A DNA stretch of 33,404 bases, from contig NZ_PUED01000010.1 in the NCBI RefSeq assembly GCF_003024925.1, positions 1-33,404 on the forward strand, read 5' to 3'. Position numbers and translations under genes: made by a program. Below are positions 31,009 through 33,404 of this stretch, one piece after another. The DNA comes from Paramuribaculum intestinale. GTDB lineage: Bacteria; Bacteroidota; Bacteroidia; Bacteroidales; Muribaculaceae. A model generated the notes under the pieces. It did no database searches. It was not told the origin of the DNA and worked only from the letters and a program-made list of their open reading frames with translations. Numbering within the stretch: position 1 is the stretch's first letter; each line of letters opens with the position of its first letter.

Positions 31009-31213
31009 GACATTCTGGCCGAATTTACGGCAAGCAAGCAGTAAAAATGTTGGCAATTACCAACTTTTGCCGTCGTGAGATTGTTAGAAAATCAGCAGAC
31101 GGCAGATCCCTGCGGTCAGCCGCCGCATCACACCGACAGCTTGCAACCCGCCGGGGCGCACATGCCGGCATCCGGTCGGAGCCACAATCCGGTCAAGTCC
31201 AGCAAAGAATCTA
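31009..31213. other. Gap between the DUF5106 promoter and the fold-back element
   Basis: No gene is supported; short open frames here lack family features. GTTGG-CAATTA-CCAAC (31049-31064) is a small inverted repeat that could be an operator. It overlaps AACTTTTG (31062-31069), which matches the -7 consensus except for the first base, and might serve clpB. The remaining sequence to 31213 is GC-rich and unremarkable. Confidence 0.35.
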
Positions 31214-31397
31214 AGAGTATGTTTGAATTTAACACGAAAAATATATATGAACTTCTTTCTATCCCCTCAAAGGTCTTTTCGGGCGATTTGCGTCAAGTCT
31301 CATCGGTCACGATGCCCGCATCGCTCCCTCTTCAACTCACGCAAATCTCTCCGAAAATCCTCTTGGAGTGAATAGAAGTAAAATTCAAACATACTCT
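31214..31397. mobile_element. 184-bp fold-back (MITE-like) element upstream of clpB
   Basis: The ends AGAGTATGTTTGAATTT (31214-31230) and its exact reverse complement (31381-31397) are 17-bp terminal inverted repeats. The interior also pairs: ACTTCT, then TTTTCGG, GATTTGCGT and CGATGC in the left half recur in order on the opposite strand of the right half. The whole element therefore folds into one long imperfect hairpin, the left half being longer by about 18 bases near its end. The centre is CGATG-CCCG-CATCG. It encodes no transposase. A 50-codon frame (31219-31371, starting MFEFNTKN) and a 30-codon frame on the - strand arise from the repeat and are probably not genes. No clear target-site duplication was seen. 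It ends 25 bases before the clpB ATG. Confidence 0.75.
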
Positions 31398-31422
31398 AAA
31401 AAACTGTTTATTTATCCAGGAT

Positions 31423-33404
31423 ATGAATTTCAATAATTTTACCATCAAGTCACAGGAAGCCATCCAGAAAGCAGTGGAGCTGACACGCGCCAACGGCTGT
31501 CAGGCCATTGAGCCGGTGCATATCCTTAAGGCCGTGATGTCGGAGGGCGAGTCGCTCGTGAAGTTTATCTTCGCGAAGACCGGCGCCAATATCACCACCG
31601 TCAATGCCGCCATAGACCGCGAGATAGCATCGCAGCCCAAAGTGTCGGGCGGAGAGCCATACCTGAGCCGCACGTCAAACGACGTGCTGCAGAGAGCCAT
31701 AGACATCGCCAAGAAGCAGGGCGACGAATATGTCACGCTCGAAGCGCTACTCACCGCACTATTCGAGATCGCCTCGCCCGCGTCCTCCATCCTGAAGGAC
31801 TCCGGACTGACCGACAAAGAGCTGAAGGCGGCCATCGAAGAGTTGCGCAAAGGCAAGAAAGCCACCGACCAGAGCGCTGAGGAAACCTACAATTCACTCA
31901 ACAAATATGCCATAAACCTCAACGAACGCGCACGTCAGGGCAAACTCGACCCGGTGATAGGGCGCGACGACGAGATACGCCGTGTGCTCCAGATATTGAG
32001 CCGACGCACCAAGAACAATCCCATGCTCATAGGCGAGCCAGGCACCGGCAAGACTGCCATAGCCGAGGGTCTGGCACAGAGAATCGTGCGCGGCGACGTG
32101 CCTGAAAACCTCCGTTCCAAACAGATCTTCTCGCTCGACATGGGCGCCCTCGTGGCCGGAGCCAAATACAAAGGCGAGTTCGAGGAACGACTGAAAGCCA
32201 TAGTCAACGAGGTGACACAGAGCGACGGAGAGATAATATTATTCATCGACGAGATCCACACCCTTGTCGGAGCCGGAAAAGGAGAGGGAGCCATGGACGC
32301 CGCCAATATTCTCAAGCCGGCACTCGCCAGAGGCGAACTCCGCAGCATAGGCGCCACCACACTCGACGAATACCAGAAATATTTCGAGAAGGACAAGGCT
32401 CTTGAACGCCGATTCCAGAAGGTGATGGTCAACGAACCCGACGAGATGAGCGCAATAGCCATCATGCGCGGACTGAAAGAGCGATATGAGAACCATCACA
32501 AGGTGCGCATCCGCGACGAGGCGATCATAGCCGCCGTGCAGCTCTCCGAGCGCTATATCACCGATCGTTTCCTCCCCGACAAGGCTATCGATCTCGTGGA
32601 CGAAGCTGCCTCCAAACTGCGTCTGGAAATGGACTCCGTGCCGCAGGCTCTCGACGAGATCACCCGCATGATAGCCCAGAAGGAGATCGAGCGGGAGGCC
32701 ATAAAGCGCGAAGGCGACAGCGAGAAAGTCAAGGAGATCGAGAAGGATCTCGCGCAGATGAGAGAGGACGAGAAGGAGTTCGCCGCAAAATGGAAGGCCG
32801 AGAAAGATCTCATAAACCGCATACAGCAGAACAAGATCGACATAGAGCAGCTCAACTTCGAGGCCGAGCGCGCCGAACGCGAGGGCGACTACGCCAAAGT
32901 GGCGGAGATACGTTACTCGAAAGTGCAGCAGAAAGAGACTGAGAATACCCAGATACAGGAACAGCTCGCCATGATGCAGGGAGAGAAAGCCCTGATCAAG
33001 GAGGAGGTCGACGCCGAGGATATAGCCGACGTGGTAAGCCGCTGGACCGGCATTCCGGTCAACAAGATGGTACAGAGCGAAAAGGAGAAACTGCTCCACC
33101 TCGAAGCCGAGCTTCACGAACGCGTCATAGGTCAGGAGGACGCAATCCGCGCCATAGCCGACGCCGTGCGCCGCAGCCGTGCCGGACTCAACGACCCGCG
33201 CCGCCCCATTGGATCGTTCATATTCCTGGGCACTACCGGAGTCGGCAAGACCGAGCTGGCAAAGGCACTGGCCGAATATCTCTTTGACGACGAGAACATG
33301 ATGACCCGCATCGACATGAGTGAATATCAAGAGAAGCACACAGTGTCGAGGCTTGTCGGAGCGCCTCCGGGATACGTAGGCTACGACGAAGGCGGACAGC
33401 TGAC
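31423..33404 (+). CDS. clpB: ATP-dependent chaperone ClpB, 3' end beyond the window
   Basis: A hexameric AAA+ disaggregase that rescues aggregated proteins with DnaK. The first 660 residues (of about 860 expected) are present. The start [20 protein letters not shown] opens the Clp N-domain repeats. NBD1 has Walker A GEPGTGKT (204-211), Walker [15 protein letters not shown] and the pore loop [13 protein letters not shown]. The charged coiled-coil middle domain (about 410-530) separates ClpB from ClpA/ClpC. NBD2 begins [10 protein letters not shown] and has Walker A GTTGVGKT (603-610), with Thr where most ClpB have Pro (GPTGVGKT). The frame is still open in [13 protein letters not shown] at the edge. 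The leader is unusual: the fold-back element sits just before it. Confidence 0.96.

Follow-up and report, generated by a model that had tools for sequence, protein, structure and literature searches.

Among the mobile sequences described so far in bacteria, those close to the element reported here include the Correia or NEMIS elements of Neisseria, which are short and non-autonomous, have terminal repeats and a conserved core, duplicate their target, and reach about 120-250 copies per genome (PMC2649163). These elements can also sit between a promoter and its gene, where the RNA hairpin that results is a substrate of RNase III (PMC2649163). MITEs with hairpin transcripts are already known as well (PMC2229807, PMC10969869), and the IS1031 group of the IS5 family is characterized by a 3-nucleotide insertion site and a single ORF (PMC2516522).

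Here we analyze an element located in front of clpB in a stretch of 33,404 nucleotides of Paramuribaculum intestinale DNA (contig NZ_PUED01000010.1, positions 1 to 33,404), hereafter the window. The usual definition of a MITE rests on its ends; in the family to which this element belongs, the conserved part is an interior fold.

Results

Borders, copies and mobility of the element

Reading the flanks of copies across the genome placed the element at positions 31215..31396 (182 bp), a position supported also by an empty site in a relative and by the target duplications, and we assign it to the minus strand because its conserved hairpin reads on that strand. The copies likewise identify its perfect 16-bp terminal inverted repeats, GAGTATGTTTGAATTT on the left (31215..31230, plus strand) and the complement of the same sequence on the right (31381..31396, minus strand). 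On both sides lies a copy of the target-site duplication TAA (31212..31214 and 31397..31399, both given on the plus strand), recognized from the flanks of other copies and from the empty site in genome G012. An earlier note on this DNA, made from the sequence alone, had proposed perfect repeats of 17 bp and an element of 184 bp; these figures need correction, as the 17th paired base is part of the TAA duplication. The almost full-length hairpin without a transposase that the same note described is, on the other hand, real: as single-stranded DNA, positions 31214-31397 are predicted to fold at -36.3 kcal/mol, compared to -13.5 +/- 2.9 kcal/mol for shuffled sequences (z -7.8), and none of 200 shuffles did as well. 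There is no transposase inside the 182 bp, the 98-aa ORF that spans the element being a mechanical one. Pairing in the hairpin is imperfect, and its conserved mismatches are its most informative part. Within the terminal repeat, the sequence TATGTTTG fits the -7 box of Bacteroidetes promoters (TAnnTTTG) and faces inward at both ends of the element; given a suitable flank, such a box could generate a hybrid promoter elsewhere.

The prediction that the element would be repeated many times was borne out. A DNA search of its own genome (2.87 Mb, in 378 contigs) returned 30 matches, about 24 of which are whole or clear partial copies, and 10 copies besides that of the window are 92-95% identical to it over their full or nearly full length; when relatives were searched in the same way, related MITE families were found elsewhere in the genus. 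Most complete copies in the own genome are flanked by TAA/TAA or TTA/TTA duplications, and TWA duplications also flank most complete related elements in other genera. One MITE is nested in another with TTA duplicated, and its removal restores a site like that of a relative. At clpB itself, comparison with the nearest relative (G012, whose ClpB is 98% identical over the compared stretch) revealed an exact empty site with a single TAA, TCTAAAAAACTGTTTATTTATCCAGGATATG, which corresponds to the window minus the element and one TAA. No match to the hairpin model was found near clpB in 29 other genomes of the genus. A single copy conserved in front of clpB in distant relatives, which according to the earlier note would have pointed to a regulatory element of this gene, is thus not what we see. 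The empty site and the absence near clpB elsewhere identify a mobile MITE rather than a clpB element, and show that its insertion is recent and lineage-specific.

Being short, lacking a transposase, and having terminal repeats, a target duplication, an empty site and dispersed copies, the window element is a MITE, more precisely one copy of a multi-copy, transposase-less MITE that inserted at a TAA site in this lineage, and the description of it as a non-autonomous mobile repeat holds. Other loci of the same genome show further states of such elements. In two relics (L027, G000:C17:8431-8468, and L024, G000:C113:21606-21668) the hairpin has been lost nearly in full, leaving little beyond the two terminal repeats, as expected for a deletion between hairpin arms, while L010 and L021 (G000:C90:24240-24503) are two MITE copies arranged head to tail around a common TAA, the second of them truncated.

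Relation to the IS5 family

The terminal repeat of the window element is of the same type as that of L111, a 901-bp insertion sequence found in genome G016, whose terminal repeat GAGAGTGTTTGAATTTAAA is a variant also carried by MITEs of the P. intestinale genome; the L111 repeat GAGAGTGTTTGAATTT is one of the variants found there. The transposase of L111 matches the IS5 model NF033580 with 182.6 bits, compared to a cut-off of 110, and also matches PF13340 and PF01609. By inspection, a MITE in genome G008 matches the ends of L111 over its first 20 bases and roughly its last 27. In the P. intestinale genome itself, contig ends fall in an insertion sequence with the repeat GAAACTGTTTAAATTT and a related transposase tail, which means that the assembly has broken up the matching insertion sequence; none of the PF01609 proteins of this genome has such terminal repeats, and no intact autonomous element with the exact GAGTATG repeat was found in this fragmented assembly. 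Of the traits of the IS1031 group, TWA duplications are present and L111 has a single ORF, but the elements with two hairpins described below appear disrupted or frameshifted. Ends of the IS5 family (transpos_IS5_3 type), combined with a 3-bp TWA duplication, strongly support the view that a transposase of this type moved the MITE in trans. The conserved hairpin is absent from L111, in spite of the shared type of ends, which argues that such transposases do not as a rule depend on it.

A conserved and covarying hairpin core

When relatives were searched at the DNA level, families with differing ends turned out to have positions 58-150 of the element in common. The corresponding model (R1) matches the window only once, at 31261..31372 on the minus strand, with 111 bits. 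An alignment of 20 diverse cores supports a single long hairpin with 32 pairs, 26 of which have both partners substituted in one or more sequences, with 111 cells showing such double changes versus 41 +/- 5 in shuffles, and among 91 covariance-model matches the corresponding values are 632 versus 199 +/- 15. Because relatedness can inflate these counts, and because the model itself had guided the second alignment, a tree-based null was also run on 65 sequences, with two weak order-level matches that are probably false (L167 and L168) left out of the covariation tests. At E 0.05, 12 of the 32 pairs of the structure passed, along with only 2 other pairs, both adjacent; when MAFFT aligned the sequences without regard to structure, 8 of 10 significant pairs fell on the same helix. 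Covariation therefore exceeds what phylogeny accounts for in both alignments, as expected of a structured element.

Conservation in the core peaks outside the stems, in two tandem GA/GA mismatch modules that lie on either side of an apical stem in 33 of 43 families with less than 80% identity. In the window this pattern, GAGGGAGC-GATGCGGGCATC-GTGACCGA, occupies 31303..31330 on the minus strand. The modules are parted by 1 to 3 bp that themselves covary (GG-CC, AG-CU, G-C, AGC-GCU), and in 61 of 86 rows the pair that closes the inner module is G-U. In a family of genome G105 (L400-L433) this closing position is polymorphic among copies, which read either GTGACC or GAGACC, and this polymorphism is a natural test of the position. 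The stretch from the terminal repeat to the core is far less conserved than the core itself. Within two single-genome families, constraint on the motif was suggestive only, in a test that was underpowered. The core matches no described RNA family, and searches of the window and ten related loci with Rfam covariance models at permissive thresholds yielded only unrelated chance matches. Several more familiar identities were considered and set aside: symmetric tandem GA/GA loops fit the alignment better than a kink-turn; a hammerhead-like ribozyme, brought to mind by CCGAUGA near GAA, has neither a third stem here nor an Rfam match; and no T-run follows the hairpin, as an intrinsic terminator would require.

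Comparison across families shows an interior fold, overlooked in the earlier note, that is kept by compensatory change in Bacteroidales MITEs with differing ends and that is found also at some IS5-family ends. This fold, conserved across families with unlike ends and sequences, seems to be the target of selection. In 42 of 43 families, the predicted fold of the strand that carries the core is more stable than that of the opposite strand, with a mean difference of 14 kcal/mol, and G-U wobbles outnumber A-C ones 95 to 33, or 66 to 33 if the conserved G-U pair is left out. These values point to a strand-specific fold, in RNA or in single-stranded DNA, although the asymmetry is partly circular as the structure was inferred on that very strand.

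Distribution and forms

The hairpin model matched 151 of 247 Muribaculaceae genomes, in 21 of 30 genera, as well as 13 of 295 Bacteroidales genomes taken from a range of families and 2 of 395 Bacteroidota genomes, both of which are Bacteroidales; family and phylum names follow the titles of named records and the earlier note. An exact-pattern scan of named genomes gave at least 118 stretches, and the titles among the matches listed belonged to Bacteroidales, including Prevotellamassilia timonensis. Matches per genome (E 0.001) numbered 44 in the genome of the window, 53 and 50 in two others, 93 in a single-contig genome of 3.3 Mb, and 29 in another single-contig genome. Three forms are represented in the genome with 93 matches. 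Single-hairpin MITEs measure 161 bp, MITEs of 336-350 bp mostly contain a pair of inverted hairpins, and an IS5-type insertion sequence of 1180 bp has one hairpin at each end; TWA duplications mostly flank these elements. Genome G144 offers examples of the longer forms. L362 (contig 1, about 2.236 Mb) is a 1180-bp IS5-type element with a covarying hairpin inside each terminal repeat, TAA duplications, and a transposase reading frame that appears split; L368-L398 are MITEs of about 348 bp, most with two inverted cores, whose terminal repeat is GAGCTTGTTTAATAATAAATGTTA, and about 20 copies of this family were counted among the loci read.

Insertion sequences with two hairpins are present in genome G006, too. 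In two-hairpin elements, each hairpin lies about 24 bp inside the terminal repeat, in the same relative orientation, and reads inward. Overall, single hairpins occur in MITEs whose terminal repeats differ, and inverted pairs of them in some IS5-family elements; MITEs and IS5-family insertion sequences are the only contexts in which we saw the hairpin. Using a simple gene caller, none of 98 single elements fell inside a gene. Orientation with respect to neighbouring genes (37 sense versus 25 antisense) showed no significant bias (p 0.16), and hence gives no sign that the hairpin RNA serves its neighbours.

The clpB leader

The clpB gene (31423..33402, plus strand) is open at the end of the window and has orthologues in 32 of 34 genomes of the genus; its ATG lies 23 bases from the end of the right TAA copy. 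Further upstream, at 31062..31086 on the plus strand, we identified a bipartite block that resembles a promoter or operator, AAC-N17-TGTTA in the window and AAC-N17-YGTTW in general, whose spacer is exactly 17 bases in 27 of 30 genus genomes, while spacers of 12-22 bases are otherwise found in no more than 2 genomes each. This block, which is unlike the usual TTTG / TAnnTTTG promoter, is a candidate promoter or operator of clpB for the Muribaculaceae. A promoter of the Bacteroidetes type (TTG-N16-20-TAnnTTT) was not found on either strand between 30981 and 31423. In the window, the conserved block is intact and lies above the MITE, 361 bases from the start codon versus 179 in the nearest relative. 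The earlier note had left it open whether the element was in the clpB leader or replaced its promoter; with the block intact upstream, leader insertion is favoured, and the MITE probably sits in the 5' leader of clpB. The leader RNA with the element is predicted to form one long hairpin, and as transcribed on the clpB strand it carries the complement of the conserved core. The clpB leader would be roughly 185 nt longer and contain a strong hairpin, which would be expected to change the stability or the translation of the clpB mRNA rather than its promoter.

Discussion

The explanation that best accounts for these results jointly is that of an IS5-type MITE, probably inserted in the clpB leader, with a conserved strand-specific hairpin, and we put its probability at about 0.8. 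Two other explanations concern clpB directly. A leader position in a heat-shock gene, together with the strong hairpin predicted in the leader RNA, is what one would expect of a conserved regulatory element such as a thermosensor or an attenuator, but an ancestral clpB element is refuted by the exact empty site in G012, the lack of a match upstream of the gene in 29 genomes, and the copies at many unrelated loci, so that we find this explanation hardly credible. That the MITE supplies clpB with a new promoter is very improbable, even though the box in its terminal repeat has the appropriate sequence and Correia elements make hybrid promoters in Neisseria (PMC2649163), as the boxes at the two ends point inward, no TTG box is found at a spacing of 16-20 on either strand, and the conserved block upstream of clpB is intact.

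With regard to the hairpin itself, an ordinary MITE might carry it as a by-product of folding back, the symmetry of its arms being maintained by template-switch correction without selection. Long foldback structures are common in bacterial MITEs (PMC2229807, PMC10969869), and correction between arms would create compensatory changes, too. Such correction, however, should erase mismatches, and the GA/GA mismatches are the best-conserved part of the core across families less than 80% identical, whereas conservation is much lower in the stretch that joins the core to the terminal repeat; we therefore regard this explanation as unlikely. The main rival is a role of the hairpin as DNA, in which a single-stranded or extruded, strand-specific fold would be bound by the transposase or by a host protein during transposition. 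The restriction of the hairpin to MITEs and IS5-family insertion sequences, its placement about 24 bp inside the terminal repeats in a constant relative orientation where there are two, and the lack of significant orientation bias to genes all agree with this role, and tandem G-A pairs are stable in DNA as well. It is harder to reconcile with L111, which has the same type of terminal repeat and no hairpin, or with the G-U wobble kept beside the inner GA module in 61 of 86 rows, as expected of RNA; furthermore, we know of no single-stranded intermediate established for IS5-type transposition. A DNA-level role is hence a serious but clearly minority possibility, and a role at neither the RNA nor the DNA level seems to us less probable still.

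We are inclined toward a role at the RNA level, in the element's own interest, in which the hairpin would function as a folded RNA in transcripts that start outside the element, and consider the chances of this putative role to be about even. This preference follows from the hairpin not being simply a transposase requirement, from its retention with compensatory changes by MITE families of different genera, which argues that it is not merely the fossil of one parent, and from the inward reading of both hairpins in two-hairpin elements, due to which every transcript that runs in from a flank would include a hairpin. In insertion sequences with two hairpins, transcripts entering from either side would carry the hairpin and could thereby damp transposase expression, while in MITEs a compact, processable RNA hairpin would soften the effect of insertion. 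It is almost as likely as not that we are dealing with a previously undescribed, Bacteroidales-wide structured RNA, the hairpin with its two tandem-GA modules, that resides on a superfamily of IS5-family elements under self-serving selection, and that ranks among the most abundant structured motifs of the Muribaculaceae. Numbering as many as 93 in a finished genome of 3.3 Mb, these elements amount to a large supply of unannotated hairpins in the leaders and intergenic regions of common gut bacteria. They also raise the question of why an element moved by a DDE transposase keeps a strand-specific hairpin, and with the hairpin model one can annotate such elements and measure how they affect clpB and other genes.

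With the IS5 family (transpos_IS5_3, IS1031-like), the window MITE shares a cognate transposase, GAG ends and a 3-bp TWA duplication, but it lacks the transposase carried by the autonomous elements, which are about 0.9-1.2 kb long. To our knowledge, subterminal hairpins are not a described feature of this family. The MITEs of Porphyromonas gingivalis (MITEPgRS/464, BrickBuilt) belong to the same order, are intergenic, and have IS5-family terminal repeats (GAGACTGTTGCA and similar), but their interiors are described as tandem direct repeats, and we saw no mention of a conserved hairpin core in them (PMC4596501). ERIC, CIR and other hairpin MITEs are likewise intergenic and 100-200 bp long, with long stem-loop transcripts, but we saw no description of a double tandem-GA core that they keep across differing ends (PMC2229807). 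In the open literature we found no description of a covarying core common to different-ended MITEs and insertion-sequence ends in Bacteroidales. The Correia or NEMIS elements resemble the window MITE in size class, non-autonomy, terminal repeats, target duplication and possession of a conserved core. Their target is TA, and that of the window family TWA; with ends that read GAGTATGTTTGAATTT and TWA targets, the window MITE is not a neisserial Correia repeat. Correia elements belong to another phylum, differ in sequence, and form their hairpin by pairing of the terminal repeats, whereas the family described here keeps an inner, covarying core with GA modules in spite of its differing ends, and carries that core also at the ends of insertion sequences.
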